From positions 1-27,003 of IMG/VR virus record IMGVR_UViG_3300022200_008240: a stretch of DNA of 27,003 nt; one strand, 5' to 3'. Numbering within the stretch: position 1 is the first letter of the stretch; each line of letters begins with the position of its first letter. Under the pieces are notes generated by a model that was given only the letters and a program-made list of their open reading frames with translations, was not told the DNA's origin and did not search any database. Positions 4,894 through 27,003 of this stretch are shown piece after piece. Source of the stretch: a virus. Position numbers and translations under genes: made by a program.

Positions 4894-4901
4894 TATTTAT
4901 T
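4894..4901 (-). promoter_or_regulatory. T4-type late promoter motif AATAAATA
   Basis: Leftward AATAAATA lies 27 nt before the ATG at 4866. It overlaps the TAA stop (4900-4902) of the collagen-like fibre gene, so the promoter is built into the gene end. Confidence 0.5.
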
Positions 4902-7900: not shown

Positions 7901-9180
7901 CCCTGAGTACCATCAGTACCCTGAGTTCCATCGGTTCCCTGAGTACCAGCACCTGTAGTTCCCTGAGTACCATCAGTACCCTGAGTTCCATCTGTACCTT
8001 GGGTTCCATCAGTACCCTGAGTTCCATCTGTACCTTGAGTACCTGTAGTTCCCTGAGTTCCATCGGTTCCTTGTGTGCCATCAGTTCCCTGAGTACCATC
8101 ACCTGTAGTTCCCTGAGTACCATCTGTACCTTGAGTACCTGTGGTTCCTTGGGTTCCATCGGTTCCTTGAGTACCAGTTAGGAAAGAACCATTAGCGTAA
8201 AACGAAGTAGCACTAATAATACCAGTGTTTCCGTAGATTGTTACACCAGCACCAATAGTAACTTCATTATTGATACCATCAATAGTTACGGAAGCAGGAC
8301 CGACAGTTAAAATGCCAGTAACTCTTGCATCTCCTTCGACAAGCAGACTATATTCAGAATCTGCCGTAGTTCCAATGCCGACGCTACTTGTAGTATGAAT
8401 ACCGGCAGCAGTCTGTTCAAAGTAACCTGTTCCACCGCCACCGCCACCGCTATTGTTAGTTACAAATTCAAACTTCCTTATCGAATGATCATATCTTAAA
8501 AACTTACCATCATATGCAGATGCATTAGTAGCAATACCAACAATGTCATCAAGATACTTAAGTTGCGTCTCACCACCTCCACCTAATGTGGATAATTGTT
8601 GTTGAATACGATTGACAAAAAGACGATAGTGATTTGAAAGATCATCTAAGGTTGCAAAATTCGTATTAGCATCAGGATTTTTTTCATCGAGAAGTCCTTC
8701 AGACAAAGAAACAATTTCTTGTTTTTGTTGTATTTCTGCGACTAATTTATGAAGTAATTTTATATCCTCATCATAATATTTTACTTCAGGAATTTCTGGA
8801 AATTGTAAAGGTTTAACTAATAATTTTTCTGCTTCACTATAACCAAATGCTCTACGAAGCCTATCTAATTCTACAGACAGTTGTCCTATATCTTTTTTAT
8901 AATCAACTACTTCAGGAATATTAGAAACTTGAGATTTTACTTGTTCAACTAATTTCTCAAGTTCTATAATTCTTTGATAGTTTTTATTCTCAACATTATC
9001 TACACCTTCTACTACTTCCTCCTCCTCATTATTTTCTTCAACAACAATCTCTTCCTTCTCATCCAATAAATCGGAAGGAGATAAAATTTTTTTTTGAGAT
9101 TCAATTTCTATTTCTTCATTATTTAACTTTTCTTCATTCTTTTTCTTCTCAAAGAAGTCCGAAGGTTTATTCAATGGCAC
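4900..9180 (-). CDS. Giant collagen-like tail-fibre/virion protein
   Basis: This encodes 1426 residues. Residues 1-60 are highly charged and acidic, and about 60-160 look coiled-coil (IIELEKLVEQVKSQ...). A poly-Gly hinge near 245-250 leads to a VGIGTT... LLVEGDARVTG neck module (about 265-330). Residues about 336-1083 are collagen-like Gly-X-Y, almost entirely GTQ, GTD and GTT, then GTTGTSVQ octads. A second VGIGTTNPQYKLHVSG module lies near 1190, then a short second collagen block (about 1224-1279), then a C-terminal beta domain ending in a GGGGGGGG stretch and AFLNS. It is probably a trimeric fibre. The start is GTG with AGGAG upstream; a CATAAATA late motif is 37 nt upstream. The triplets are essentially proline-free (one GPD). 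Host-recognition or virion-decoration roles are inferred. Confidence 0.88.
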   Translation of the reverse strand: MPLNKPSDFFEKKKNEEKLNNEEIEIESQKKILSPSDLLDEKEEIVVEENNEEEEVVEGVDNVENKNYQRIIELEKLVEQVKSQVSNIPEVVDYKKDIGQLSVELDRLRRAFGYSEAEKLLVKPLQFPEIPEVKYYDEDIKLLHKLVAEIQQKQEIVSLSEGLLDEKNPDANTNFATLDDLSNHYRLFVNRIQQQLSTLGGGGETQLKYLDDIVGIATNASAYDGKFLRYDHSIRKFEFVTNNSGGGGGGTGYFEQTAAGIHTTSSVGIGTTADSEYSLLVEGDARVTGILTVGPASVTIDGINNEVTIGAGVTIYGNTGIISATSFYANGSFLTGTQGTDGTQGTTGTQGTDGTQGTTGDGTQGTDGTQGTDGTQGTTGTQGTDGTQGTDGTQGTDGTQGTDGTQGTTGAGTQGTDGTQGTDGTQGTTGSGTQGTDGTQGTDGTQGTDGTQGTAGSGTQGTDGTQGTDGTQGTDGTQGTTGSGTQGTDGTQGTDGTQGTTGTQGTDGTQGTDGTQGTDGTQGTTGSGTQGTDGTQGTTGTQGTDGTQGTTGTQGTDGTQGTTGTQGTDGTQGTTGTQGTDGTQGTDGTQGTDGTQGTDGTQGTDGTQGTDGTQGTDGTQGTDGTQGTTGSGTQGTDGTQGTTGTQGTDGTQGTDGTQGTDGTQGTDGTQGTDGTQGTTGTQGTDGTQGTDGTQGTDGTQGTDGTQGTTGTQGTDGTQGTDGTQGTTGTQGTDGTQGTDGTQGTTGTQGTDGTQGTTGTQGTDGTQGTTGTQGTDGTQGTDGTQGTTGTQGTDGTQGTDGTQGTTGTQGTDGTQGTDGTQGTTGTQGTDGTQGTDGTQGTTGTQGPDGTQGTTGTQGTIGTQGTDGTQGTDGTQGTDGTQGTDGTQGTTGTQGTDGTQGTDGTQGTDGTQGTTGTQGTDGTQGTDGTQGTDGTQGTDGTQGTDGTQGTDGTQGTTGTSVQGTTGTSVQGTTGTSVQGTTGTSVQGTKGTQGTTGTSVQGTTGTSVQGTTGTSVQGTTGTSVQGTTGTSVQGTTGTSVQGTKGTQGTTGTSVQGTTGTSVQGTTGTSVQGTTGTSVQGTTGTSGPVAGSANQIVYKNSSNTAAGSDSFTYSGPSSGVGTIGIGTIIDIVHYDTLNSGTLSFEASAGQLFSITNNLSSGSIFSVNDISGIPSIDVDAGGTILVGPYSTTGDKVGIGTTNPQYKLHVSGNTNIDGTLTVNGAAISGGSGTQGTTGTQGTTGTSVQGTKGTQGTTGTSVQGTTGTSVQGTTGTSVQGTTGTQGNISGVRYNFSTDITTSAIPAGTIRFNWGGISGVSQIYVHKDDANSTTQTGWITSWDDSTSSTKGYLTLKSASTSGTQYTTVFNVTLVSSLQGSGSNQYYLVNVSNPSGSVPSNSHPLALTFSRTGDAGGGGGGGGSSALTTLAFLNS
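5345..5509 (-). repeat. Second collagen-like DNA repeat block (GTQ/GTSVQ)
   Basis: Approximate limits. Tandem near-identical units encode GTQ-GTT and GTTGTSVQ, reading on the plus strand as CCTTGTACCGAAGTTCCTGT with synonymous changes. The block sits between the second neck module and the C-terminal domain of the collagen-like fibre. It matches the larger block at 5936-6318, suggesting duplication. Confidence 0.8.
5936..6318 (-). repeat. Tandem 24-nt repeat encoding GTTGTSVQ octads
   Basis: Approximate limits. A run of 24-nt units encodes GTTGTSVQ, with GTKGTQ inserted twice. Each octad breaks the Gly-X-Y period with two extra residues (VQ). Units differ mainly by synonymous changes (for example GAAGTTCC followed by GGTAGT or TGTTGT), a sign of unit duplication with drift. 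Confidence 0.85.
6319..8178 (-). repeat. Long 9-nt-period collagen repeat with 54-nt higher-order units
   Basis: Approximate limits. About 1.86 kb encodes GTQ-GTD-GTQ-GTT triplets. Higher-order periods are visible: the 54-nt unit 6661-6714 is repeated exactly at 6715-6768, and again at 6769-6822 with one mismatch. Such arrays slip and recombine readily, so length may differ between related phages. The same array creates long spurious open frames on both strands. Confidence 0.9.
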
Positions 9181-14909: not shown

Positions 14910-15518
14910 ATGAAAATATTTGGATTAAAAAATAAAACAATATCAAACTTTGAAAAAAGAGGATGGCATTATCTACCTAATATTATTTCACCAACAGAAG
15001 CAATACAAATCAAATATCAAAACTTAATGGGTGCTGTTCATGATCTTGGTGGATTAAAATCTCACCATGATCCTGAAAGAGGTAAAGTAATGTGTTGTTA
15101 TGCTCCACCATCTTCTGTTTTTGTGGTTCGTAGAGTTAAACCAATTCTTGAAAATATACTTGGAGAAGAATTAATTCCATCATATTGGTTTACAACAACA
15201 TATCATAATAAAGGTTTTATGGTTAGACATACTGATAGACCTTCTTGCGAAGTATCAGTTACTATGAATATAGATGGAACAGTAGATTGGCCTATACAAC
15301 TTCAAGATCTTCAAGGAAAAAGAAGAAAAGTAGTAACTCCTATTGGGCATGGATTAGCATACCTTGGAATAAAAGTTCCCCACTGGAGAGCACCTCTTCG
15401 ATGTAAAGAAGGTGATCAGTTTATGCAATTATTTTTGCATTATGTTAGAAAGAGTGGTCCATGTGCTGACTATGCTTATGATAAAAATCAAAAATGTTAT
15501 AATCTTTTAAATCAATAA
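14910..15518 (+). CDS. 2OG-Fe(II) oxygenase-like protein, plus strand
   Basis: This encodes 202 residues. The core double-stranded beta-helix shows FMVRHTDRPSCEVSVTMNID, with the HxD metal pair H107/D109, and VPHWRAP with the distal H158. FMQLFLHYV forms a late strand. The Arg/Lys that normally binds 2-oxoglutarate about ten residues after the distal His is not obvious; G-D-Q170 occupies the region, although R160/R164 and K166 are nearby. Similar proteins are annotated as 2OG oxygenases in cyanophages; the substrate is unknown. This is the only plus-strand gene of the window. It has its own sigma70-type promoter and no clear Shine-Dalgarno. Its 3' end overlaps the convergent gene by 7 nt without a terminator. 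The orientation suggests separate acquisition or early expression. Confidence 0.82.
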   Translation: MKIFGLKNKTISNFEKRGWHYLPNIISPTEAIQIKYQNLMGAVHDLGGLKSHHDPERGKVMCCYAPPSSVFVVRRVKPILENILGEELIPSYWFTTTYHNKGFMVRHTDRPSCEVSVTMNIDGTVDWPIQLQDLQGKRRKVVTPIGHGLAYLGIKVPHWRAPLRCKEGDQFMQLFLHYVRKSGPCADYAYDKNQKCYNLLNQ

Positions 15519-16171
15519 GCTTGAATTCCATACTTTTCCGATATTGCTTTATCCTGATCTTCTTTTGTTGGAACACCTTCAACTCTCATCCAACAAACAC
15601 TTGCGATTCTTTCTCCAGAAATAACTGGTTGAACACCATGAAGATAATGATGTGTTGATGGAAAGGCAATAAACAATCCCGGTTCTGGTTTTATACTAAT
15701 ATTCCATGCAGGAAAAACAAATTCCCCACCTTCAAAATCATCATTTAAAAAAAGAACCGTTGATAAGTCTCTATCAATAGTCTTTTTCCATTGTTGTGTT
15801 CCATCAGGATTTGTCCATAATCCTTCGCCGTCATAGTGAGGTTTATAGTGTCCACCTTTTTCATAATAAAGGAACTGTGGTATTTCACTATCCTTGACTT
15901 TAAATTGATAAAATGGATTAATCACATTTTTAACAATGTCTTCATAAAGACATTGAACTTCTGTTATAATTGGACTTATATCAGCACACAAAACATCTCT
16001 TACTTTAGGATCTATTTTGTGCTCATCTTGTCTAGTATCATTTGATTTCTCTGCATCATAAACACCCATTCTATCTTTGGGTGATTTTTTTACATAATCA
16101 GTTAGATATTTACATCCTTCCTTTGTTACAACATTGCGTTGAATTAATATTTTTCCAAGTAAAATATCCAT
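15512..16171 (-). CDS. Prolyl-4-hydroxylase-like 2OG-Fe(II) oxygenase
   Basis: This encodes 219 residues. FLYYEKGGHYKPHYDGEG carries the HxD pair H112/D114, LSTVLFLNDDFEGGEFVFP is the typical P4H strand, and HGVQPVISGERIASVCW gives distal H178 and the 2OG-binding R188. All catalytic residues of the P4Hc fold are visible, so it should be active; hydroxylation of a peptidyl residue is the usual family reaction. There is no signal peptide. A CATAAATA late motif lies 22 nt before the ATG, so it is probably expressed with virion genes, unlike the plus-strand oxygenase it converges with. No Shine-Dalgarno is seen. The substrate is not evident: the nearby collagen-like tracts have almost no proline. 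Confidence 0.9.
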   Translation of the reverse strand: MDILLGKILIQRNVVTKEGCKYLTDYVKKSPKDRMGVYDAEKSNDTRQDEHKIDPKVRDVLCADISPIITEVQCLYEDIVKNVINPFYQFKVKDSEIPQFLYYEKGGHYKPHYDGEGLWTNPDGTQQWKKTIDRDLSTVLFLNDDFEGGEFVFPAWNISIKPEPGLFIAFPSTHHYLHGVQPVISGERIASVCWMRVEGVPTKEDQDKAISEKYGIQAY

Positions 16172-16202: not shown

Positions 16203-18164
16203 TTAAGTATGAGTTATTCCATTATCAGAAACTGTTGCTGCCCAATAAGAATTTCCTTTTTGCAACTGCACTCCAGGCAATGACATAGTTTCACTTGAAA
16301 ATTCCATTCTATCAATTACACTTCTACTTCCTGGACTCCATCCACCGGCAATGTATCCAAAATTTTCATTGCAGAATGCATTCAACCCTTCCCTGCCCTC
16401 TGGCATAGAATTTGTTGTATAACTAAATGTTTCAGAAGAAAAATCTAGTCTTTCTATACGACATTGATATGTGGGCCATCCACCACCACCTGCCACATAT
16501 CCATATTCGGGACTTTGAAATGATGCAAATTCTTGTCTTTTTGTAATCATAAAACCAGAATTATTTACTGATTCTGTGGAAAAATCTAACCTATCATATG
16601 TGCTTTTCTCCGATCCCCCAAATGGAGGAGGTCCTTCTCCTCCACAAAAGTATCCATAACTTGGGGTCTTAAGTGAAGACATCCATGCTCTGTCATATGT
16701 TAACATATTTCTAGAAGTTAATACTTCTGTGGACAAATCCATTCTTGTAACTTCATCATCATCTCCTCCAGCGGGTCCAGCACCACCAGCAGTGTAAATA
16801 TAATTATTGTTTGCAAGTGATGTTGTTCTTTTAATTCCAGAACCGCCAAAAGCTGGAGGATTCAATGAAAGATTATCAGTTAAAGTTTCATTACTAAAAT
16901 CCATTCGATCTATTTTGGAACTAGCTTGGGGTTTAGAAAGTCCTCCTATAAAATATCCATAGTTACTATTTCCGGCAGCAGAAAGTTCAGATCTACGTTG
17001 AGCTAACTGAGCATCAATAGGAAGCGTTGTCATCGTTTCGGTTGCATATTCCATCCGATCTATGTTTTGATAAGGAAAACCTGGAAGTTCCCCTCCACCA
17101 TAATATCCATATTTGCCACTTATGCTTTTTCCGTTTTTATCAGTGGATTTTCTAATCCTAGAATTTACTGATTTTCCACCACTAAATGATGCCAACTCAT
17201 TTCTACCTGCTGGCAAATTAAATGTTGATGGAGCTTCTGGTGCAAATGTAGTTTCATTTGAAAAATCAAGACGAGTAATCTTACTATATTCAAAAGATGG
17301 TGGGTGAAATCCACCAGCAAAATAACCATAATCTAACCCACTAACTCCACTCCATGTATTACGCTCTTCAGTAAAACCTATTAGCGCCACCCCTATAGTT
17401 TCACTAGAAAATTCCAAACGATCTATTGTACAAATAAATGCATTTGGCGGATGTTGTCCACCAGCTGCATATCCATAGTTTTTTGTATAGACTGATCCCT
17501 GACCAGATTTAGCAATTGGTAAATTATTCCCTGGTGCTGATGTAGTTTCATTAGAAAAATCTAATCGATCAACAACACAATTATAAGGTGGAGAAGATCC
17601 ACCAAAAAAATAACCATAATCACTGGTGTTGAAAGTAGCAAAAGTTGCTCTAGCACTCGTTAATTGATTTGGTGCAGGAGCTGGAGGAACTGCTACTGTT
17701 TCACTACTAAAATCTATACGATCTATAGTACAAACTTGTCCCAAAGAAACATTGGGATTAGAACGACCGCCCGCAAAATAACCGTATTGTGGACTAAAAA
17801 TTCCTCCCAATCCCCATCTTGCCTGAGTTAATTGACTTCCCGTAAGTGGAGATGTTAATAATTCATTTGAAAAATCTAAACGTGAAATTACATTAGTTCC
17901 AACATATCCAGTTGTAGGATTATATCCGCCAGCAAAATAACCATATAATGAATTACTAATTCCCGTAAGAGAGGAAAAAGCAGTTTGAAGGTTATTACCT
18001 GGTGCTGATGTAGTCTCATTAAATAAATCTATTTTATCAACAATAGTAGTTGGGGTATTTTGAACATCAATTCCACCGCCAAAGTAACCATAGTTGGCAG
18101 ATTCATCTATATTACCTTCTAACTGTTCTACTCTAAAATCAGAAAGACCGAATACTCCTGCCAT
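16203..18164 (-). CDS. Kelch-like repeat (6+6 blade) virion/adhesin-type protein, copy 3
   Basis: This encodes 653 residues starting MAGVFGLSDF. I count six repeats of about 50 residues (NYGYFGGG, LYGYFAGG, QYGYFAGG, DYGYFFGG, NYGYAAGG, DYGYFAGG). A linker (SRIRKSTDKNGKSISG near residue 335) follows, then six more repeats (KYGYYGGG, NYGYFIGG, NYIYTAGG, SYGYFCGG, EYGYVAGG, NFGYIAGG). Each repeat has a GG strand, a variable loop, then a [ILM]DRxDFSxET-like strand and a loop often containing a basic residue, which is the kelch layout. Two six-bladed propellers are likely. The role is probably tail-fibre or surface binding; this is inferred from neighbours. Repeats here are the most diverged of the three paralogues in both halves. 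A CTAAATA motif precedes the gene. Confidence 0.82.
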   Translation of the reverse strand: MAGVFGLSDFRVEQLEGNIDESANYGYFGGGIDVQNTPTTIVDKIDLFNETTSAPGNNLQTAFSSLTGISNSLYGYFAGGYNPTTGYVGTNVISRLDFSNELLTSPLTGSQLTQARWGLGGIFSPQYGYFAGGRSNPNVSLGQVCTIDRIDFSSETVAVPPAPAPNQLTSARATFATFNTSDYGYFFGGSSPPYNCVVDRLDFSNETTSAPGNNLPIAKSGQGSVYTKNYGYAAGGQHPPNAFICTIDRLEFSSETIGVALIGFTEERNTWSGVSGLDYGYFAGGFHPPSFEYSKITRLDFSNETTFAPEAPSTFNLPAGRNELASFSGGKSVNSRIRKSTDKNGKSISGKYGYYGGGELPGFPYQNIDRMEYATETMTTLPIDAQLAQRRSELSAAGNSNYGYFIGGLSKPQASSKIDRMDFSNETLTDNLSLNPPAFGGSGIKRTTSLANNNYIYTAGGAGPAGGDDDEVTRMDLSTEVLTSRNMLTYDRAWMSSLKTPSYGYFCGGEGPPPFGGSEKSTYDRLDFSTESVNNSGFMITKRQEFASFQSPEYGYVAGGGGWPTYQCRIERLDFSSETFSYTTNSMPEGREGLNAFCNENFGYIAGGWSPGSRSVIDRMEFSSETMSLPGVQLQKGNSYWAATVSDNGITHT

Positions 18165-18183
18165 TTATCTTATCACTTTTTTA

Positions 18184-18190
18184 TATTTAG
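18184..18190 (-). promoter_or_regulatory. Late-type promoter motif CTAAATA
   Basis: Leftward CTAAATA lies 19 nt before the ATG at 18164; its TAA is also the stop codon (18187-18189) of the preceding kelch-like gene. Confidence 0.45.
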
Positions 18191-20106
18191 ACCGCAATGT
18201 CTGATGGGAAACAATGAGAAGCGCGTACAGAAGGACTTGACATTGTTGTTGATGGAGATGTACTAGTATTTGTGGAAAATTCATACCTATCCATTCGATT
18301 TAGAGTAGTTGGTGGTCTGTATCCAGGTCCTATGTAACCATAATGTTTGGATAACCCTACGGTAAGATCCATTCTTCCTACGGGAGCAGGACAATATGTC
18401 CCTCCTGGAGAAAATGTTTCTGTTTCCATATCAAATTTATTTGCTACATTTAAATAACTGCTAGTATAGAGACCATTACCACCAAAGATATATCCATAAC
18501 TTCCTACAAGATCTTTACCTCCAGCCGTGCCCTGTACTCTATATGTAGTGGGAACTGGAGCAATACTAGTTGTTTCAGTTGAAAATTCTAAACGATCTAT
18601 AATACTCGCTCTAACTGGAGGTAATCCTGGAGTTTGTCCCATAGAAAACCATCCATAATAAGGAGAAGAAAAATTAGCTACACCACTTGGGGTTCGAGTT
18701 GTGGATACTGATATTATATTTGCTATAATTGTATCAGTATCTGTTGATTTATCGTATCTATTACCATTCGTTTCATTCTGTCTGGTAGAATATCCATAGT
18801 GATTATTACTAAAAGAACTTCCTGTTCCTGCTGCTGAAAGCTTATCTAAAGCACTTCTAGTATCATTCTTAAATTCATATCTATCCAAAATTGTTGTTCC
18901 GGTTTTTACTTGATATCCATAATCAATACTTGTAAATATACTACCATGAGGTTGTGCTGTACCAGCCATATCTGTTGGTGGGGTAGTTTGAGTTTCAGTC
19001 GCATAATCGATTATATTTCTTTGCCCAGGAGCACTTCCAGAAGGAAGTCCGTTCATCAAATAAAAACCGTATCCACTGACAGAACTTCCAGTTTTATCAG
19101 TTGTTCGTCTTATTCTTGTTTGTCTGCCAGAAACTCCTGCTACAGAATTTCTTGCTTGAGTTAAATTTGCTCCATGAACTGGTGGTCCTACTACAGTTTC
19201 ATTAGAAAAATCAATGCGGTCAATGGTACAAAAACGTGATCCGTCAAAACCACCACCAAAATAACCATAATTGGAACTAAAAACTCCTGCTGAACCTTGT
19301 CTACTTACAGATAAAGTACCTCCTATCTCTAATACAGTTTCACTAGAAAAATCAATGCGATCAATGGTGCAAACATAAGGTGGAGAAGAACCACCTGCAA
19401 AATAACCATAATCTGAACCAGAAACTCCTGCGGAAGTAGATATTGTTTTAGTTAGATTATTTCCTGGTGCAACTGTAGTTTCGGTAAAAAAATCAATGCG
19501 ATCAATAGTATTTTTATAACCGCCAGATATTGGATTGTCACCCCCAGCAAAGTAACCATAATTGGAACTAAAAACTCCTTCTAAAGCATTTCTTGCTTGA
19601 GTTAATTGACTTCCTACTGGTGGTACTGCTACAGTTTCACTAGAAAAATCGATGCGGTCAATAGTGCAAACACGATCTGGAGTAAGAGCAGGATCACGAC
19701 CACCAGCATAATAACCATAATCTGAACCAGAAACTCCTGCTAAAGCATTTCTTGCTTGAGTTAATTGACTTCCTACTGGTGGTACTGCTACAGTTTCATT
19801 AGAAAAATCAATACGGTCAACTTCATCCGTAACGCCAACTCCTGGAAAACCACCACCAAAATAACCATAACCATAATCGGAACCGGAAGTTGATATTGTA
19901 TTAGTGATTGCTCTAGTTAATGATGATCCAGGTAGTGATACAGTCTCATTAGAAAAATCAATACGGTCAATGGTACAAACAACAGGTCCTGGAGTAGAAC
20001 CACCACCAAAGTAACCATAGTTAGCAGACTCCGGCCAAGTATTGTCTACTTGTTTGTCATATAATTTACTACTATTTGTCCTGAGACCGAATATATCTCC
20101 TGGCAT
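18187..20106 (-). CDS. Kelch-like repeat (6+6 blade) virion/adhesin-type protein, copy 2
   Basis: This encodes 639 residues starting MPGDIFGLRTNSSK. The first six repeats (residues about 28-330) are close copies: [SN]xYGYFxGG, a variable loop, CTIDRIDFSxETV, then PVGSQLTQARNALAGVS. The linker TRIRRTTDKTGSSVSG follows. The last six repeats (YGFYLMNG, DYGYQVKTG, HYGYSTRQ, YYGWFSMGQ, SYGYIFGG, HYGYIGPG) are strongly diverged and often lose the GG. Thus one half looks recently homogenised and the other does not. Two six-bladed kelch-like propellers are likely; a surface-binding role is inferred. It begins 4 nt after the stop of the unknown protein gene, so the two are probably co-expressed. DNA of its first half is nearly identical in places to the paralogue at 22642-24633. 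Confidence 0.82.
   Translation of the reverse strand: MPGDIFGLRTNSSKLYDKQVDNTWPESANYGYFGGGSTPGPVVCTIDRIDFSNETVSLPGSSLTRAITNTISTSGSDYGYGYFGGGFPGVGVTDEVDRIDFSNETVAVPPVGSQLTQARNALAGVSGSDYGYYAGGRDPALTPDRVCTIDRIDFSSETVAVPPVGSQLTQARNALEGVFSSNYGYFAGGDNPISGGYKNTIDRIDFFTETTVAPGNNLTKTISTSAGVSGSDYGYFAGGSSPPYVCTIDRIDFSSETVLEIGGTLSVSRQGSAGVFSSNYGYFGGGFDGSRFCTIDRIDFSNETVVGPPVHGANLTQARNSVAGVSGRQTRIRRTTDKTGSSVSGYGFYLMNGLPSGSAPGQRNIIDYATETQTTPPTDMAGTAQPHGSIFTSIDYGYQVKTGTTILDRYEFKNDTRSALDKLSAAGTGSSFSNNHYGYSTRQNETNGNRYDKSTDTDTIIANIISVSTTRTPSGVANFSSPYYGWFSMGQTPGLPPVRASIIDRLEFSTETTSIAPVPTTYRVQGTAGGKDLVGSYGYIFGGNGLYTSSYLNVANKFDMETETFSPGGTYCPAPVGRMDLTVGLSKHYGYIGPGYRPPTTLNRMDRYEFSTNTSTSPSTTMSSPSVRASHCFPSDIAV
19147..19227 (-). 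repeat. Segment shared almost exactly with 23416-23496
   Basis: These 81 nt in kelch-like copy 2 match 23416-23496 in copy 1 at 80 positions: 55 identical, one mismatch, 25 identical. It encodes a repeat core with GPPVHGANLTQAR. It indicates recent exchange or duplication between paralogues about 4.3 kb apart. Confidence 0.9.
19581..19798 (-). repeat. Direct repeat within kelch-like copy 2 (59 nt, 159-nt period)
   Basis: The 59 nt at 19581-19639 recur exactly at 19740-19798, a spacing of 159 nt or 53 codons, which is one blade. This supports expansion or homogenisation by whole-blade units. Confidence 0.9.
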
Positions 20107-20110
20107 TTAA

Positions 20111-20956
20111 TTACTGGCGTAGATCGTTATTAAAAAGTGGTACCTTTTCTTGTTCTAATTGCTTTGTTTCTTCTTTACCCCCAAGAAGTTTTTCTGTCAT
20201 CCCACTGATTTCTTCAATGCCAGAAGCAACATGCTTTTGAAGGCTCTCAAGGAATTCCCTTGCGTTTGTTGGGTCAGCATATCCTTCCTTAATTCTATTA
20301 ACATCATCATCAAGAACAGTTGGTGCCGTTGCTCTTCTCATAGAACGAATATTTCCACCTGACACACCAGTTTGTGCTGCTAGTAAATCATCAAGTGCTT
20401 GGTTTGCAAATCTTCTTTCCCAATAAACTGGTTGGTCGGCATCAAATTCTGCTTTGGTTGGAGGATGACCACCATTTAACTCAATAAGTCTTTCAATAAC
20501 TTTATCGAAAAAAGATAGTTCATCAATTTGTGCCTTGAACCCAGAATTCAATCCATCAATAAAACGATGAAAATGAAACTCGTCAATATCATACCAACAA
20601 AGTTCTTCTCCACCATCTCTGGTTTTCCACCAAATTGGTTTTGATTTATCTTTACCTTCCCATTTGAAATGAAATTCCCTAGCATGTTTTTTTGCTTCTT
20701 GAATGCTGGAAAGTAATCCTTCGGCAACAGACTTTCTATTAATAATTGCTGCTTTAAATGCCGATGGAATTGTAAAGTTGTCATGAATAATAAACTTTTC
20801 AATTTGGAAATTTGATCTTCCCTGTGCTAATTCAATTTCAGATGCTCTCCAACGATTACATTCAGAAAGAGCTTTTAATGTAAATTCTTTATTTTTTTCT
20901 TCATCTAAAACATCTTCTGCTTTAGCCAGTGCAAATTCATTGTAATTATCAGACAT
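20111..20956 (-). CDS. Phage protein of unknown function
   Basis: This encodes 281 residues beginning MSDNYNEFALAKAEDVLDEEKNK. It is mainly helical and charged. It contains a Trp/His-rich central part (HFKWEGKDKSKPIWWKTRDGG, then WYDIDEFHFHRFIDGL near residue 125), an HPPTKAEFDADQPVYW stretch, and a C-terminal helical region ending NNDLRQ. No signal peptide, membrane segment or enzyme motif is recognised. It has a GGAG Shine-Dalgarno close to the ATG, and a CTAAATA motif about 33 nt upstream. It lies 4 nt before kelch-like copy 2, so it may help assemble or attach that protein; this is a guess from position. It could equally be a conserved virion protein. Confidence 0.78.
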   Translation of the reverse strand: MSDNYNEFALAKAEDVLDEEKNKEFTLKALSECNRWRASEIELAQGRSNFQIEKFIIHDNFTIPSAFKAAIINRKSVAEGLLSSIQEAKKHAREFHFKWEGKDKSKPIWWKTRDGGEELCWYDIDEFHFHRFIDGLNSGFKAQIDELSFFDKVIERLIELNGGHPPTKAEFDADQPVYWERRFANQALDDLLAAQTGVSGGNIRSMRRATAPTVLDDDVNRIKEGYADPTNAREFLESLQKHVASGIEEISGMTEKLLGGKEETKQLEQEKVPLFNNDLRQ

Positions 20957-20978
20957 AAAACTCCGTTAAATTATGATG

Positions 20979-22610
20979 TCAACTTGATTTATTTAGGTTG
21001 TTGTTTTTGGCAAAAAATAATCCGGAACAATCATTTTCCCATTCAAGGTCTATTGTAAAATTTTTATTTTTTAAGAATGAAACTAAATTATTGATGTTAA
21101 ATTTTGAAGTTACGTTGTTATGAAATTCCCCAACAATTTCATTGACTTTATGTAGAAGTTTCGAGTTCATAATAATTTCAAACTCCGATCCCTCTGTATC
21201 TATTTTTATTAATCGCACTCTTTCCAATTGATTTAAAATATCATCTAAAGATATGCACCGTACCTTTTGAATCGAATAATTTTTATATCCTTCTTGTTTA
21301 ATATTGTATAATGTATTCATACCAGTATTCCACTTTGTTGGATATGAATAAAGATCTACTTCATTAGCATTGTGTCCATAGACTGCCATATTAAAAGTTC
21401 TAACACCGGAATAACTTTCCAAATTTTTTTGTAATAAGTTATAATTTTCTTTTTCTGGTTCAAAAGAAACAACATTTTTACATCCAAGATCAAGACACAA
21501 TTTTGAAAAAGATCCGCGATGTGCTCCAATATCAATTACAACATCAGTAGATTTTAAATTTTTAATTTGATAATCATTTTTAATATAAACATTATTAAAA
21601 ATAATTTCATCCATAGTCATTCTTTCAAAAATAAAAATTGGAATTTTTTTTGTTATAACATCTATATAATATTTCCATTTATTTGATATTATTTTCCAAT
21701 TATAATTTTTTGTGGCATACATTGATATTTTTTTTGATATATCATTATATTCATCTCTAACCTTATCAAATGCCGAAAGAGCACGAATTACTTCCTCGGC
21801 AAAGTTTTTATGAAAAGTTTCATCAGGAATCCAACCTCTTAAAGTATTCTGTCCTGACATTGGAATATATTTACCCATCCAGTTAGAAGTCTCTGGAAGT
21901 GCTCCCATGCCTGTTGTAATAGGAAAGCATCCACAAGACATTGCTTCTGCCAAAGACACGCAGAAGGTTTCCTCCCAGACATTAGGATGGATATAAAAAG
22001 CAGCATCCTGAATATGAGAAAGAAGTTCTTCTCTATCAATACAAGGAGAATATTCGACACCAGGAAGTTCTTTAAGTTCTTTATAAACAGGAATAAATGG
22101 TGATGGTTCTAGTCCATTTGGTCCAGTGACAGTTTCATTATCCCCTTCGCCTGGTTGAATATCTCCATAAAGAGACATGGAAGAAAATACTTTGAGTTTT
22201 GCATCTGGATGATGCTTAATAACTTCTTTCCAAATAGGAACCAAAGGAGCAACTCCTTTGTGTGGTGCCGAAAAGAAAATACAAGTCTTTGACTTTGGTT
22301 TTCCAGATGGACGAAACATCTCATGCACTCCATTTGGAATAACATGAAGTTTCTCTGCTGGTGCTCTGTTATACTTTATAAACTGCTCCCTTTCCCAATT
22401 TGAAACGCAAACGATTCCATCAACTTTATCCACATGTTGTGGAAGATCTTTGTGTCCCATCTGGTCACAATTATCATGTGCCCAGATAATTTTATATTTT
22501 TTATCTGACTTTATAATTTCATGCGTTGTTCTCTGCACATCAACATTTTCTGGAAAAGTATAATGTTGAGAAAGATAATGAAAAGAACTTTCAGTCGCAC
22601 CAGATTTCAT
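20979..22610 (-). CDS. GT4 glycosyltransferase fused to FkbM-type methyltransferase
   Basis: This encodes 543 residues. Residues about 40-320 are a GT4 (GT-B) transferase: IIWAHDNCDQ near 41, CVSNWEREQFI near 68, IPNGVHEMF at 91-99, and the donor-site EX7E motif E214-E222 in EETFCVSLAEAMSCG. The N-terminal Rossmann half is short (about 100 residues). Residues about 330-530 are an FkbM-family methyltransferase: VVIDIGAHRGSFS at 357-369, SFEPEKENY at 382-390, IKIDTEGSEFEII at 468-480. The pairing suggests addition of a sugar and its O-methylation by one polypeptide. A GATAAATA late motif lies 22 nt before the ATG, in the same arrangement and leader as the prolyl-hydroxylase-like gene. No Shine-Dalgarno is seen. 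The acceptor is unknown. Confidence 0.87.
   Translation of the reverse strand: MKSGATESSFHYLSQHYTFPENVDVQRTTHEIIKSDKKYKIIWAHDNCDQMGHKDLPQHVDKVDGIVCVSNWEREQFIKYNRAPAEKLHVIPNGVHEMFRPSGKPKSKTCIFFSAPHKGVAPLVPIWKEVIKHHPDAKLKVFSSMSLYGDIQPGEGDNETVTGPNGLEPSPFIPVYKELKELPGVEYSPCIDREELLSHIQDAAFYIHPNVWEETFCVSLAEAMSCGCFPITTGMGALPETSNWMGKYIPMSGQNTLRGWIPDETFHKNFAEEVIRALSAFDKVRDEYNDISKKISMYATKNYNWKIISNKWKYYIDVITKKIPIFIFERMTMDEIIFNNVYIKNDYQIKNLKSTDVVIDIGAHRGSFSKLCLDLGCKNVVSFEPEKENYNLLQKNLESYSGVRTFNMAVYGHNANEVDLYSYPTKWNTGMNTLYNIKQEGYKNYSIQKVRCISLDDILNQLERVRLIKIDTEGSEFEIIMNSKLLHKVNEIVGEFHNNVTSKFNINNLVSFLKNKNFTIDLEWENDCSGLFFAKNNNLNKSS
20990..20996 (-). promoter_or_regulatory. Possible late-type promoter motif CTAAATA
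   Basis: Leftward CTAAATA, inside the last codons of the GT4-FkbM gene, lies 33 nt before the ATG at 20956. AT-rich coding sequence makes a chance match possible. Confidence 0.3.
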
Positions 22611-22631
22611 ATAGAATAATGTAGTTTTGAT

Positions 22632-22639
22632 TATTTATC
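22632..22639 (-). promoter_or_regulatory. T4-type late promoter motif GATAAATA
   Basis: Leftward GATAAATA follows the stop of kelch-like copy 1 by 2 nt and stands 22 nt before the ATG of the GT4-FkbM gene. The spacing and leader match those of the motif at 16193-16200. Confidence 0.6.
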
Positions 22640-22641
22640 AG

Positions 22642-24633
22642 TTAGTTTGAGACTCCTGCTGAACCATATCTTGCTTGAGTTAATTCATTTCCTACTGAAG
22701 GTACTGCTACTGTTTCGCTGGAAAAATCAATACGGTCAATGGTGCAATACCACGTAGTTCCATTATAACCACCAGCAAAGTAAGCATAATTGGAATTGGA
22801 ACTTTCTGCTAAGTATCGTCTCTTTAAAGTTAAATTTGCTCCATGAACTGGTGGTCCTACTACAGTTTCACTGGAAAAATCTAAACGATCAATGGCACAA
22901 GTGTCACCTGGAATTGTTGGACTAGAACCACCAACAAAGTAACCATAATTAGAACTAGAGACTGCTGTTAAACCTTCTGTTATTTTATCTAACCCATTTC
23001 CTACTGGAGGCACTGCCACAATTTCGGTAGAAAAATCAATTCGGTCAATAGTATTAAAATAACTCACCGCATCATTGCCACCGGCAAAGTAACCATAATT
23101 TGAATTAGATAGTGCTGTTAATGCACTTCTTGGTTTAGTTAATCCTCCTGGTGGTGTTCCTACTGTTTCATTGGAGAAATCTAGACGATCAATGACGCAA
23201 TACCGCGTAACTCCATTATTACCACCGGCAAAGTAACCATAATTAGAATTGGAAAGTGCGCAAAGATTAGTTCTTTGTTGACTTAACCCATTTCCTACTG
23301 TAGGTACTGCTACTGTTTCGTTAGAAAAATCAAGTCGATCAATAAGATTAACCAAAGGTGGGGCAAAACCACCAGCAAAATATCCATAATTGGAATTAGA
23401 AACTGCTGCTAAATTATTTCTTGCTTGAGTTAAATTTGCTCCATGAACTGGTGGTCCTACTACAGTTTCACTAGAAAAATCAATGCGGTCAATGGTGCAA
23501 ACCTGAGGTGGAGCAAACCCACCGGCAAAGTAACCATAAGATTGTGAAATTGGATTTCCATTTTTAGCAGTATAAATGGTTGAAAATCTAGTGATTGGTT
23601 TTCTTGGCGATTCTGCAAATGCTGTTACCGCTGCTGCTTCGGCAGATATTTTTTCGGTTCCTAAGGTATAAGTGGAATTTGAATAATCAAATCTGTAAAT
23701 ATTTGTTGTATTATTGGGAGCATTATAAGTTGGTTTTCCGCCAACAACGTAAGCAAAATTATTTCCATCCGGAAATGCTCCACCATTTCTAAGATTAACT
23801 GGAAATGAAGTCGAGGGAGACACTGTATCGCTACTAAATTCGATCTTGTTTACTGAGTTCCATGATCCGGAAGGACCCATTCCAGCAAAAAAATAAGCAT
23901 GTTCTTTACTACTTGCACCACTATGTTCTGCTTTAATATTTGATAAAACACCAGGTAAAGTAGAAACTACTTTGGATGAAAAATCAAGTTTTCTAATAAT
24001 ATTTCGATATGCATGGGGGTTAGATGGGGGTATTCTGCCATAACCACCAGAAATATATCCAAACTCAAATTTAGATTGATTTGGTGCTTCAACAGCAGCA
24101 GTCTGGGTCAAAAACATCCCTTCTGGTGTTGGACTTGGGAAATAAATAGGACTAGATACTGTTTCATTGGAAGTGGAATATACGAGAGCATTATCTCTAT
24201 CAATTCCACTACCCAAATGATTACTACTATAACCATGACATGCCATTCCATATCCATATTTGATTGTTGACATGGTTGCATTTTGAGCATTAACTCTATT
24301 ACTTGTCCACCAATTCGTAGTATCAAGTCCACTTACAGAAGCACGAGCATGAGTTGTAAAATCAATTCTATCAACGCTGGATATATAGTTTGGACTAACT
24401 AAACTAGAATATCCACCAACAGCATAAGCATGTTCTTTACCAACCATTCCAGAAATGGAAGATTGTTGAAGAGATAAACTTATATCGCTAAGTTTAGTAG
24501 TACTATTGTTAAAATCATACTGGTCAATTTCGGTTGAAGAAGAAAATATATAACCATACTGAGGATCATAAGAAGTCCAAATATCCTTAATTTGTTTTTT
24601 ATATGTCGTCTTTAAACCAAATACGCCAGCCAT
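22642..24633 (-). CDS. Kelch-like repeat (6+6 blade) virion/adhesin-type protein, copy 1
   Basis: This encodes 663 residues starting MAGVFGLKTTYKK. The first half (about residues 24-355) has six diverged repeats (YGYIFSS, HAYAVGG, YGYGMAC, FGYISGG, HAYFFAG, FAYVVGG). A linker (TRFSTIYTAKNGNPIS) follows, then six near-identical repeats of about 47 residues (SNYGYFAGG, a loop, IDRIDFSSETV, then PVGN or PVHGANLTQAR), ending LTQARYGSAGVSN. This is the reverse of copy 2, where the first half is uniform. Two kelch-like six-bladed propellers are likely. The only variable parts of the uniform repeats are short loops, as expected for a binding surface under change. An AATAAATA late motif lies 21 nt upstream. 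A virion or host-binding role is inferred. Confidence 0.83.
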   Translation of the reverse strand: MAGVFGLKTTYKKQIKDIWTSYDPQYGYIFSSSTEIDQYDFNNSTTKLSDISLSLQQSSISGMVGKEHAYAVGGYSSLVSPNYISSVDRIDFTTHARASVSGLDTTNWWTSNRVNAQNATMSTIKYGYGMACHGYSSNHLGSGIDRDNALVYSTSNETVSSPIYFPSPTPEGMFLTQTAAVEAPNQSKFEFGYISGGYGRIPPSNPHAYRNIIRKLDFSSKVVSTLPGVLSNIKAEHSGASSKEHAYFFAGMGPSGSWNSVNKIEFSSDTVSPSTSFPVNLRNGGAFPDGNNFAYVVGGKPTYNAPNNTTNIYRFDYSNSTYTLGTEKISAEAAAVTAFAESPRKPITRFSTIYTAKNGNPISQSYGYFAGGFAPPQVCTIDRIDFSSETVVGPPVHGANLTQARNNLAAVSNSNYGYFAGGFAPPLVNLIDRLDFSNETVAVPTVGNGLSQQRTNLCALSNSNYGYFAGGNNGVTRYCVIDRLDFSNETVGTPPGGLTKPRSALTALSNSNYGYFAGGNDAVSYFNTIDRIDFSTEIVAVPPVGNGLDKITEGLTAVSSSNYGYFVGGSSPTIPGDTCAIDRLDFSSETVVGPPVHGANLTLKRRYLAESSNSNYAYFAGGYNGTTWYCTIDRIDFSSETVAVPSVGNELTQARYGSAGVSN
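23416..23496 (-). repeat. Segment shared almost exactly with 19147-19227
   Basis: This is the partner of the 80/81-nt match in kelch-like copy 2. A third, weaker relative with the same PPVHGANLT core lies near 22835-22890 in the same gene. Confidence 0.9.
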
Positions 24634-24643
24634 TTATAACACT

Positions 24644-25312
24644 CTATTTTTCTATATTTATTTCCTGAAATACATGAGAACCAACATGGCACAAACGAAT
24701 TGTTGTATCTAACCATGCGGTAAATCCAACACTCTTTGCTCTTTCAAAGAACGAAAAATCTTCTGGAAGATAACTCATGTCTTTTTTCAATTCATTAAAA
24801 TAGTGATATGAATTATAATATTCTGCTTCAGTAATTGGATAGGTAGAATGCCCCTGTGCAGGAATATATTTTAGATCTTCATAGTTCTCTTTTATTTTTT
24901 CAAATACTCTACGGTGAATAAGAGCAAAACCAAATCCAATACTTTCAATCTTTACCAAACTATTCTCTGCTACCGGTGGTTGAGAGATATTATAATTGTA
25001 TTGTAATGGAATACTCTTCATTGGATATGCGCCACATACAATATCCTTTTGATGTGATAGAAGTTTTAATACATCTTCAGAAGTGAATCCAACATCAGCA
25101 TCAATAAACATTACATACTCATATTGAGTATTATTCATAAAGAAATTGGCAATCCTTGATCGACCTTTTGTGATTAGACTCTCATTTGCAAGAGTAATCA
25201 AACCATGATCAATTTGATTTGATCTCAAATCTTTGCCAAGATTAAACAATCCCTTGGCAGTTTTATCACTAACAAGTCCGCCATAACAAGGCAGTGCAAT
25301 TAAAACGCTCAT
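24644..25312 (-). CDS. GT-A (GT2-like) glycosyltransferase
   Basis: This encodes 222 residues. The N-terminus MSVLIALPCYGG is the first strand of a GT-A fold. RSRIANFFM near residue 51 and VMFIDADVGFTSED with the DxD pair D71/D73 form the nucleotide-sugar/metal site. IVCGAYPMKS and IGFGFALIHRRVFEKI are typical of this phage transferase group, and PEDFSFFERAKSVGF near residue 183 corresponds to the acceptor-side acidic motif. It is shorter than bacterial GT2 enzymes and has no membrane segments, so it is likely soluble. Its ATG overlaps the stop of the 2OG oxygenase gene (ATGA), so the two are translationally coupled. Its 3' end contains the AATAAATA late motif for kelch-like copy 1. Confidence 0.88.
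   Translation of the reverse strand: MSVLIALPCYGGLVSDKTAKGLFNLGKDLRSNQIDHGLITLANESLITKGRSRIANFFMNNTQYEYVMFIDADVGFTSEDVLKLLSHQKDIVCGAYPMKSIPLQYNYNISQPPVAENSLVKIESIGFGFALIHRRVFEKIKENYEDLKYIPAQGHSTYPITEAEYYNSYHYFNELKKDMSYLPEDFSFFERAKSVGFTAWLDTTIRLCHVGSHVFQEINIEK
24655..24662 (-). promoter_or_regulatory. T4-type late promoter motif AATAAATA
   Basis: Leftward AATAAATA lies within the last codons of the GT-A gene, 21 nt before the ATG of kelch-like copy 1. Confidence 0.5.
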
Positions 25313-25887
25313 ACTAATAACTCAATATTAAAGGAAATGGAAATACGATTTTCGTCTGATGTGTTTGGTACAACAGAATGTGGAAGCCAGGATGGAAATA
25401 AAAGTAAATCTCCAATCTCTACCTGATGTGTAAAATACTCATCTTTAATTAAACAACTTCTTTGGAAATCCATCATTCTTGCTGGTCGTGGATCCTCAAA
25501 CATGATTGAATTATTATCTTTTGATAATTGTATATAATATACTCCACTCATCCAACCAGATGGATGAACATGAGAAAAATTCATTCCTCCTTTTGGGTTA
25601 ATATTTCCCCACATGGATCTAATAACCATTTGTGGTGTTTTTTTACTTATATCCGCAATAATATTCTGTGCAATAATTGTCGTCTTTTCTAAGAGTGGTT
25701 TAAAAATTTCTTGATTCCAGAGATCAGTATCACTTTGCCATCCACCTCTATTACTTCTTATCTTTCCAGAAGTTTTTTTAGATAGATCAATCAAAAAATT
25801 TTTATATTTTTCATTTTCTTTTTCATCAAAAATATTAGAACTGTAAAATACAGTGGGAAATAACTCCCCCTTTTTAATATTAAACAT
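25309..25887 (-). CDS. 2OG-Fe(II) oxygenase (PF13759/TIGR02466-like)
   Basis: This encodes about 192 residues starting MFNIKKGELFPTVFYSSN. The layout matches the 2OG-FeII_Oxy_5 group: SHVHPSGWMSGVYYIQ with the HxH in place of HxD, FEDPRPARM, GDLLLFPSWLPHSVVPN with the distal His near residue 170, and ENRISISFNIE with the 2OG-binding Arg near 181. The ATG at 25887 is preferred over the TTG at 25890. No clear Shine-Dalgarno is seen. It follows the collagen-like fibre gene by 17 nt and overlaps the GT-A gene by 4 nt, so an oxygenase and a glycosyltransferase are made together just after a fibre. The substrate is unknown; such proteins are common in cyanophages. Confidence 0.88.
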   Translation of the reverse strand: MFNIKKGELFPTVFYSSNIFDEKENEKYKNFLIDLSKKTSGKIRSNRGGWQSDTDLWNQEIFKPLLEKTTIIAQNIIADISKKTPQMVIRSMWGNINPKGGMNFSHVHPSGWMSGVYYIQLSKDNNSIMFEDPRPARMMDFQRSCLIKDEYFTHQVEIGDLLLFPSWLPHSVVPNTSDENRISISFNIELLV

Positions 25888-25904
25888 CAAAAATAATATT
25901 CACA

Positions 25905-27003
25905 TCAAGTTATATATCTTCCGGAAAGATTAACTGATATTGAACTTGTAACTCCAACCTCAACAACAACTGCATCCGTTGGTTCAATTCTTTTTTCTTT
26001 TTGTAGAATTTGAACCACACTATTCTGTGGTATTGTCAACTCTTTGACAAGATAACCTTGTCTGATTGTTCCTAATCTAAAAATAGAAACAGAAACATCT
26101 ACATCCAAAATATCACTATAATTTGTCAAATTGATTACATTTAATGAGAATGGATTTGAACTTGCCGTAAATACAGTATGAATTCCAGTAACTCCTATAG
26201 ATGCTGCAATTCCAACATAAGTTGTATCAGTTCTTTCTTTATAAGTAACCCAACAATCTAAAGCATTATTGACTCCGGCAGCAGTGGTTCCTACTCCAAC
26301 AAAGGATGCAAATCTTAATTTGTCTTGAGGGTTCATGACCAATGACTGATCGATAACTTCAAGTGCTCCTTGGTATGGAACTAATACCTTATTAGTTAAA
26401 GGAACACCATTCCAAGTATTACTTCCAGTATTGAAATCAACATGTGAGGTAAAATAAACATCTGCGGGAGATATATTTGCAGCATGTATGCTTAGTAATT
26501 CATAAGTTTTTCCTGCTGTTGATGGGAAAGATTTTGCAACGGCAACAAAACCATCGATATCATTAGAAGCCGAATGATAGATTGTTGTTGTTATACCGAT
26601 ATCAAACCTTAAACCAGGACCATCTTCACCTGGAGTACCAGCACCTATAGTTCCCTGGGTACCATCAAGACCTTGAGTACCATCTAGACCTTGGGTTCCA
26701 TCAGTTCCCTGAGTACCAGCACCTGTAGTTCCCTGGGTACCATCGGTTCCTTGAGTACCATCTAGACCTTGGGTCCCATCAGTTCCCTGAGTACCAGCAC
26801 CTGTAGTTCCCTGGGTACCATCGGTTCCTTGAGTACCTGTGGTTCCTTGAGTTCCATCGGTTCCTTGAGTACCTGTGGTTCCTTGAGTTCCATCGGTTCC
26901 TTGAGTACCTGTGGTTCCTTGAGTTCCATCGGTTCCTTGGGTTCCATCGGTTCCTTGAGTACCTGTGGTTCCTTGAGTTCCATCGGTTCCTTGAGTACTT
27001 GTG
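25905..27003 (-). CDS. Collagen-like fibre protein, C-terminal part (cut by window edge)
   Basis: The frame is open from the right edge to the stop at 25905, about 366 codons; the start is outside the window. The apparent start near 26340 is only an internal codon, because the frame continues upstream without a stop through DQSLVMNPQDK. The edge-proximal part (26628-27003) is collagen-like: GTQ, GTD, GTT, GLD triplets with GTTGAGTQ breaks, then GAGTPGEDGPG. A C-terminal domain of about 240 residues follows (LRFDIGITTTIYHSASND, then FVAVAKSFPSTAGKTYELLS, YFTSHVDF, and CWVTYKERTDTTYVG), ending SVNLSGRYIT. The C-terminal domain resembles beta-rich phage fibre or virion proteins. It is a second collagen-like fibre besides the one at 4900-9180, with a different tip. 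Confidence 0.82.
   Translation of the reverse strand, partial: TSTQGTDGTQGTTGTQGTDGTQGTDGTQGTTGTQGTDGTQGTTGTQGTDGTQGTTGTQGTDGTQGTTGAGTQGTDGTQGLDGTQGTDGTQGTTGAGTQGTDGTQGLDGTQGLDGTQGTIGAGTPGEDGPGLRFDIGITTTIYHSASNDIDGFVAVAKSFPSTAGKTYELLSIHAANISPADVYFTSHVDFNTGSNTWNGVPLTNKVLVPYQGALEVIDQSLVMNPQDKLRFASFVGVGTTAAGVNNALDCWVTYKERTDTTYVGIAASIGVTGIHTVFTASSNPFSLNVINLTNYSDILDVDVSVSIFRLGTIRQGYLVKELTIPQNSVVQILQKEKRIEPTDAVVVEVGVTSSISVNLSGRYIT
26628..27003 (-). repeat. Collagen-like DNA repeat array, continues past the edge
   Basis: The 9-nt-period repeats use the same codon blocks as the main array at 6319-8178 (plus-strand GGTTCCTTGAGT, CCATCGGTTCC). Near-perfect 36-nt units (GTTCCTTGAGTACCTGTG with GTTCCTTGAGTTCCATCG) repeat toward the edge. 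Shared codon choice suggests common origin or exchange with the other fibre gene. Confidence 0.85.

Follow-up and report, generated by a model that had tools for sequence, protein, structure and literature searches.

Gene content of the locus

The window, by which we mean the whole 27,003-nucleotide stretch of the virus record IMGVR_UViG_3300022200_008240 that was analysed, carries three genes for kelch-repeat proteins, called K1, K2 and K3 here (Table 1). The interval 16203-24633 is not kelch only and includes two non-kelch genes (20111-20956 and 20979-22610). The 281-aa product of the former showed no family match in Pfam or PHROG, and most trios have a gene for a relative of about 280 aa immediately upstream of their class b kelch gene. 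The 2OG-Fe(II) oxygenase downstream of K3 belongs to the most frequent neighbour family (122 loci). Tail-fibre and baseplate genes are located upstream of the kelch genes, and a tail-fibre-chaperone gene downstream. K1-K3 gave no fibre match in Pfam or PHROG and are therefore not placed in a known fibre family; their tail-fibre, baseplate and chaperone neighbours suggest that they are phage fibre-class proteins.

Table 1. Genes and protein segments in the window.
Feature	Coordinates	Strand	Remarks
2OG-Fe(II) oxygenase	15512..16171	minus	downstream of K3
K3 kelch gene	16203..18164	minus	653 aa, class a N-terminus
K3 propeller 2	16206..17111	minus	blades 7-12
K3 inter-propeller linker	17112..17174	minus	pLDDT <50 at aa 332-339
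K3 propeller 1	17175..18092	minus	blades 1-6
K3 N-terminal module	18093..18164	minus	class a, VFGLSDFRVEQ type
K2 kelch gene	18187..20106	minus	639 aa, class b N-terminus
K2 propeller 2	18190..19071	minus	blades 7-12, divergent; blade 9 set by spacing
K2 inter-propeller linker	19072..19119	minus	
K2 propeller 1	19120..20019	minus	blades 1-6, regular
K2 N-terminal module	20020..20106	minus	class b, GDIFGL...YDKQV type
281-aa protein	20111..20956	minus	between K2 and K1
Glycosyltransferase + FkbM methyltransferase	20979..22610	minus	member of conserved enzyme cassette
K1 kelch gene	22642..24633	minus	663 aa, class c N-terminus
K1 propeller 2	22645..23538	minus	blades 7-12, regular
K1 inter-propeller linker	23539..23592	minus	
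K1 propeller 1	23593..24558	minus	blades 1-6, divergent; blade 3 set by spacing
K1 N-terminal module	24559..24633	minus	class c, MAGVFGLKTTYKKQ type
Glycosyltransferase-like protein	24644..25312	minus	immediately upstream of K1
2OG-Fe(II) oxygenase	25309..25890	minus	cassette member
Collagen-like tail-fibre protein	25905..27002	minus	truncated by window edge

Repeat plan and fold

Splitting at YGYF-type starts divided each of K1, K2 and K3 into 12 kelch-type units of about 50 aa, and the unit after the sixth repeat measured 66-73 aa in all three. A blade profile trained on relatives only detected 12 of 12 blades in K3 (16-62 bits), while 11 blades each scored above 0 in K1 and K2, a few of which (6-9 bits) barely exceeded the top score of 4.2 bits among 300 shuffles. 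K1 aa 126-190 and K2 aa 437-483 had scores of about 0 and were placed as blades by spacing alone. The first-pass annotation had described twelve repeats in each gene, six on either side of a linker, and this plan was recovered completely in K3 and with one spacing-placed blade each in K1 and K2. The linkers of K1 (TRFSTIYTAKNGNPIS), K2 (TRIRRTTDKTGSSVSG) and K3 (SRIRKSTDKNGKSISG) agree with the same annotation, which gave the pattern TRIRxxTDKxGxxxSG, weaker in copy 1; however, the TRIRxxTDK motif is lineage-specific, and the family-wide constant is the linker position after each sixth blade.

The repeats showed the hallmarks of the kelch superfamily, namely a length of about 44-56 aa, four-stranded blades and a diglycine that follows the second strand; the diglycine is missing from several K1 and K2 blades. 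Against the Pfam model PF24681 (cut-off 50), K1 scored 54.6 bits, K2 46.9 bits and K3 37.3 bits, and relatives scored up to 69.7 and 111.7 bits. PHROG 19111 was matched over most of its profile by all three proteins with E values of 1e-90 to 1e-109 (K2 1.5e-90, K3 1e-109).

The AlphaFold2 model of K3, built from 96 in-register sequences, had a mean pLDDT of 84.4 and showed four strands in each repeat. As its pTM was only 0.57, the model does not fix the relative placing of the two propellers. In the N-terminal module a helix was predicted at aa 8-15 with low confidence. Comparison with the PDB gave KLHL17 (target TM 0.93, rmsd 1.6) and Keap1 (target TM 0.91); matches to closed six-bladed kelch rings, the designed SAKe6 propeller among them, had target TM values of 0.89-0.94 over about 300 residues, each alignment spanning a single propeller. 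Poxvirus kelch proteins were present among these structural matches. Sequence-profile comparison matched SAKe6FR at an E value of 8e-17 and the Keap1 kelch domain along its whole length. Judged from these matches, the K3 model is a chain of two closed six-bladed kelch propellers, in agreement with the two propellers per chain predicted beforehand. A K1 model built from 11 sequences had a pLDDT of 32 and was discarded; the modelling thus covers K3, and the divergent propellers of K1 and K2 are predicted from the repeat plan.

Propeller number in relatives

Repeats were counted with the earlier blade profile in 139 complete, non-redundant relatives; a profile retrained on all relatives, in which the register moved and one divergent blade each of K1 and K2 went undetected, was rejected. 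The repeat number was divisible by six in 132 of the 139 (12, 18, 24, 30 or 36, with one protein of 6), and the seven exceptions had 17, 17, 11, 10, 10, 7 and 4 repeats. Long gaps occurred after 172 of 194 sixth repeats compared with 49 of 1649 positions elsewhere. Chains across the family hold two to six propellers and are 600 to about 1900 aa long. Counts other than 6+6 in homologues had been named in advance as evidence against the propellers. Such counts do occur, but they increase by six at a time (18, 24, 30, 36), a pattern that makes the propeller reading stronger. One protein of 16 repeats differed from one of 18 by the exact loss of two near-identical adjacent blades, which could be an assembly collapse or a genuine deletion. 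Some relatives carry a MAM-like domain at the C-terminal end.

Genes of the psbA/psbD type were found in 7/8 large records and gp23 in 5/8, and the larger relatives are T4-like cyanophages of the S-SKS1 type. A search of 84,980 bacterial and archaeal genomes found no relatives.

Three paralogues in step

The kelch genes come in threes: a locus has one gene of each conserved N-terminal type (a, b and c), and no class was duplicated in any of 41 loci. These classes were defined by motif rules written after inspection of the data, together with mean similarities; unsupervised clustering of the N-termini separated class a cleanly and b and c only in part. N-terminal similarity was 0.61 for the same class across loci and 0.37 for different classes inside one locus. 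No known attachment domain was recognised in the N-termini of K1-K3.

All members of a trio had the same repeat number in 31/35 loci, against a mean of 20.6 and a maximum of 27 in 5000 shuffles. Linkers were strongly rank-matched between the three genes (0.50 against 0.11-0.13). Blades, in contrast, have lost positional orthology (same rank 0.51, other rank 0.505), and blade-framework similarity was 0.67 inside a locus and 0.58 across loci. Frameworks that are alike within a locus and blades without positional orthology indicate that the copies do exchange sequence with one another.

Variation on the ligand face

Entropy in the blade alignment was highest at columns 8-14 and 39-40. At these columns pN/pS was about 1.64, compared with 0.17 in strands B and C, values measured between paralogous blades picked for similar frameworks, a selection that can bias them. 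The variable columns correspond to the B-C loop and to the residues preceding strand A, which are the ligand-face loops of kelch propellers. We take the contact residues of Keap1 to map to these same B-C loop and pre-strand-A motif positions. The Keap1 residues that contact ligands are listed in PMC6891428. Restriction of the diversification to ligand-face loops suggests varied binding partners.

Interpretation

On balance, we favour the view that K1-K3 are multi-propeller host-binding proteins of a T4-like cyanophage whose N-terminal modules dock on the tail-fibre/baseplate apparatus. Each chain would comprise a short helix-like N-terminal module and then closed six-bladed propellers strung by linkers. 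The N-terminal modules, which are constant between genomes, may dock the paralogues on this apparatus at distinct sites or in a set order, and the propellers would bind host-surface ligands via residues in the B-C loops and directly ahead of strand A. The binding face would diversify as the blade framework stays similar inside each genome. We infer a virion location, host binding and, possibly, assembly as a trio for the three proteins. As the exposed propeller faces evolve fast, the propeller chains are probably docking arms that aid host recognition. A further step, which we put forward as tentative and rather doubtful, is that the three paralogues may form one hetero-oligomeric appendage. 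Parallel chains of equal length would then be stacked propeller on propeller, with the rank-specific linkers as register and the three N-terminal docking helices as start; arm length would change by whole propellers, and binding faces would be renewed by blade exchange.

A lesser but real possibility is that the trio comprises three separate receptor-binding proteins, directed at different hosts and never assembled with one another, their equal propeller number and matching linkers coming from recombination between copies. The framework similarity inside loci and the copy exchange indicated by the blades are in its favour, but strongly rank-matched linkers beside blades that are hardly rank-matched do not resemble simple gene conversion, and in-register gene conversion is disfavoured as the only cause of the matching linkers. 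It is unlikely that the proteins are virion decoration or spacers, whisker- or Hoc-like, that cover the head or tail, attach weakly or make the particle stiffer, and do not decide host specificity. Phage CBB, which has tail whiskers, encodes the kelch proteins CBB_550, 552 and 554, of which CBB_552 is a virion protein, and its whisker-coding genes were not assigned (PMC5259590). A spacer role would also fit long propeller strings, but the confinement of diversification to ligand-face loops and the adjoining tail-fibre and baseplate genes count against it.

Intracellular kelch adaptors that bind host proteins in the poxvirus manner and are absent from the virion seem quite improbable. The nearest fold is that of the eukaryotic KLHL substrate receptors, and the poxvirus matches point the same way; yet the family has no BTB or other effector domain, its proteins reach about 1900 aa, its genes lie in a tail-fibre region with a fibre chaperone, and three copies are maintained together with the same propeller number. 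Galactose oxidase is a seven-bladed propeller with a Cys-Tyr cofactor and a His/Tyr copper site. Galactose-oxidase-like enzymes have a negligible chance of being the answer despite weak matches to kelch/galactose-oxidase Pfam models, and membership was rejected because the blades come in multiples of six and their consensus has no conserved His.

Comparison with known systems

KLHL/Keap1 kelch domains and the designed SAKe6 propellers share with K3 the six four-stranded blades per propeller, and the variable positions of the K1-K3 family coincide with the ligand-contact sites of Keap1. The family differs from them in having multiple propellers per chain, no BTB/BACK domains and 15-20% sequence identity, and in being phage-only within the searched data. 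The Synechococcus phage S-SKS1 is a direct relative with the trio a, b and c, of which 12 blades were countable in a and b; the reading frames of its copies are broken in the deposited record and one copy is cut by the record ends. Both PHROG 19111 and the S-SKS1 kelch genes are annotated as hypothetical, of unknown function.

Phage vB_PcaM_CBB is likewise large and has three kelch genes close together, and mass spectrometry detected CBB_552 among its virion proteins (PMC5259590), a likeness in description. It differs as an enterobacterial Rak2-like phage, and neither six-fold quantisation nor trio N-termini were reported for it (PMC5259590). Kelch-like proteins of the giant Pseudomonas phages PhiPA3 (protein 360) and PS119XW gave Foldseek matches of >600 alignment columns, compatible with two propellers, at 14-15% identity and an rmsd of about 20, so that propeller placing differs. 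The eBAP3 fibres of extracellular contractile injection systems bind targets through beta-propeller lectins and collagen-like shafts (PMC12923769). The likeness is one of architecture, as eBAP3 joins propeller and collagen shaft in one chain and the K1-K3 locus has them in separate neighbouring genes. P-HM2 was reported to have a kelch-repeat protein (PMC3037559) and was not among the relatives in tblastn. E217 and HFTV1 were rejected as precedents, 'kelch' in those papers being an author name only.

The first-pass annotation had regarded the three-copy double propeller as a fibre-class protein not known to be described. That is too broad in view of the kelch proteins already known from phages such as CBB and of the existing PHROG 19111, but the quantised multi-propeller three-gene family was not found described. 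In marine cyanophages, many of the proteins used for adhesion still await identification. A family that grows by whole six-bladed propellers, with three paralogues in step and diversification mainly on the binding face, is a concrete candidate for host recognition, and this candidacy can be tested in the cultured phage S-SKS1. The kelch trio family is also a natural counterpart of designed six-fold kelch scaffolds.

Repeat Plan and Predicted Fold

The open reading frames of the paralogous kelch proteins K1, K2, and K3 were confirmed on the minus strand at the positions of the first-pass annotation. Splitting the proteins into repeats gave twelve units of ~50 aa (blades) in each, the one following the sixth being longer, so the proposed 6+6 plan around a central linker held in every gene. 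A blade profile, trained on relatives only, recovered 12 blades in K3 and 11 each in K1 and K2, where one blade per protein fell below detection and was assigned by spacing; the best score in 300 shuffled controls was 4.2 bits. The divergent half was the first in K1 and the second in K2, and K3 was intermediate in both halves.

The structure of K3 was predicted with AlphaFold2 from 96 in-register sequences. The mean pLDDT was 84.4 and the pTM was low (0.57), so the model speaks to the single propellers and not to their mutual placing; residues 1-21 at the N-terminus and 332-339 in the linker were poorly determined. The blades showed one common four-strand pattern of YGYF (B), DRLDF (C), a short strand that follows SNET (D), and LAAVS (A), which runs on into the next YGYF. 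Each half-chain runs from an initial strand B to a final strand A; by this order, the ring would close where the final strand A of a propeller joins its first blade. Foldseek matched the model to kelch six-bladed rings, with TMt values of 0.93, 0.94, and 0.91 for KLHL17, SAKe6, and Keap1, respectively, each corresponding to one propeller. The family sequence profile matched SAKe6FR (E 8e-17), and its alignment extended over the complete Keap1 kelch domain. The predicted structure agrees with the two six-bladed propellers per chain expected earlier; for K3 the six-bladed kelch architecture can be taken as nearly certain, and in K1 and K2 it is likely.

Relatives were collected from IMG/VR. Repeat number was divisible by six in 132 of 139 complete, non-redundant proteins, which are phylogenetically non-independent: 12 (99 proteins), 18 (18), 24 (8), 30 (3), 36 (3), and 6 (1). 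With a second profile, long gaps followed repeats 6, 12, 18, etc. in 172/194 cases and other repeats in 49/1649. Without closed six-bladed units, sizes stepping by six throughout would be difficult to explain. Two otherwise near-identical relatives, from loci L047 and L057, have 16 and 18 blades, respectively; two near-identical adjacent blades are exactly missing, by assembly collapse or real deletion.

Coordinates of the kelch genes, their neighbors, and selected relatives
Feature	Record	Position	Strand	N-terminal motif of class
K3, class a	window	16203-18164	−	IFSLnEVRtEQ
K2, class b	window	18187-20106	−	GDVFGL..vYdrQV
K1, class c	window	22642-24633	−	GVFGL.kVYKKQ
Collagen-like fibre proteins	window	4900-9180, 25905-27002		
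Ferrochelatase-labelled PHROG match	window	14910-15518	+	
2OG-Fe(II) oxygenases	window	15512-16171, 25309-25890		
281-aa protein	window	20111-20956		
Sulfotransferase	L084	6088-6915		
S-SKS1 kelch genes	L023	201810-206345		
16-blade relative	L047	7418-9922		
18-blade relative	L057	2740-5538		
Class c, extended	L016	2817-5345		
Class c, extended	L017	8627-11197		
Class c, extended	L021	9330-11942		

Variation on the Putative Binding Face

Among 1382 blades, variation peaked at columns 8-14, directly after YGYFxGG in the B-C loop, and again at columns 39-40, directly after the R of LTQAR and before strand A. pN/pS was calculated for 1640 pairs of blades from the same gene whose frameworks were similar; it was 1.64 and 1.65 at the two peaks, against 0.17 for strands B and C, values that are indicative only given pair selection and saturation. 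The contact tyrosines of Keap1 come after the diglycine and its contact serines after the conserved Arg, which puts them at the two places that vary here. Keap1 ligand contacts include Tyr334, Tyr525, Tyr572, Ser508, Ser555, and Ser602 (PMC6891428). We consider host binding on the virion the most likely role of K1-K3, with moderate confidence.

Evolution of the Gene Trio

A locus has three kelch genes at most, and the N-termini fall into three types. Class rules were drawn up after viewing the data. Among the non-redundant loci, 41 had two or more genes that could be classified; of these, 24 held a+b+c, 17 held two different classes, and none repeated a class. N-terminal core similarity was 0.61 for the same class across loci and 0.37 for different classes within a locus. 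Repeat number was equal within 31 of 35 loci (shuffling expectation 20.6, maximum 27; 5000 shuffles). Some relatives have a C-terminal MAM-like domain; class c proteins of one lineage carry a ~270-aa glycine-rich and MAM-like C-terminal extension.

Between genes of a locus, linker similarity was 0.50 at the same rank (order along the chain) and 0.11-0.13 at other ranks; different ranks within one gene gave 0.03, and the same class and rank between loci 0.19. The linkers of an 18-blade and a 24-blade protein in locus L037 agree if numbered from the C-terminus. For blades, rank mattered little when paralogues of a locus were compared (framework 0.656 at the same rank vs 0.634 at others) and hardly at all when orthologous genes were (0.51 vs 0.505), and frameworks were more alike within (0.67) than between loci (0.58). 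Hence blades are exchanged or homogenised inside genomes, N-termini retain orthology, and linkers retain rank. Parallel, in-register assembly of three chains would explain the linker matching; a single appendage built from the trio is possible, though less likely than not.

Genomic Context and Known Systems

Large relatives carried psbA/psbD-type genes (7/8) and the T4-type gp23 capsid gene (5/8), which identifies them as T4-like cyanophages. The sole cultured relative found was Synechococcus phage S-SKS1. Its deposited a and b genes (L023; also L022) are split by frame changes, yet both show 12 countable blades. The two ends of the record fall within the repeat array of the c gene and interrupt it.

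Tail-fibre or baseplate-wedge genes precede the trio and a tail-fibre chaperone follows it, with 2OG-Fe(II) oxygenases, glycosyltransferases, FkbM methyltransferases, and a sulfotransferase interspersed. The fibres flanking the trio in the window are collagen-like. Next to them lie 2OG-Fe(II) oxygenases, glycosyltransferases, and a methyltransferase, with which the phage may itself modify its collagen-like fibres by hydroxylation and glycosylation. The 281-aa protein, without any family match, has relatives directly upstream of the class b gene in most loci and is a possible partner or chaperone. In most cases the sulfotransferase gene (PF13469; 81 loci) is the immediate upstream neighbor of the class a gene; it was not found in the window. 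Relatives of the ferrochelatase-labelled gene, which lies opposite to the kelch genes, occur in 92 loci, mostly on the opposite strand.

The family corresponds to PHROG 19111, annotated as unknown function, and a search of prokaryotic genomes gave no relative. The open-access papers searched yielded no description of a multi-propeller kelch trio. Jumbo phages are reported to have kelch proteins; one of these, CBB_552, belongs to the CBB virion (PMC5259590), and their function was termed unresolved (PMC7760394). P-HM2 has one kelch protein (PMC3037559), and in contractile injection systems propeller lectins are combined with collagen shafts (PMC12923769).
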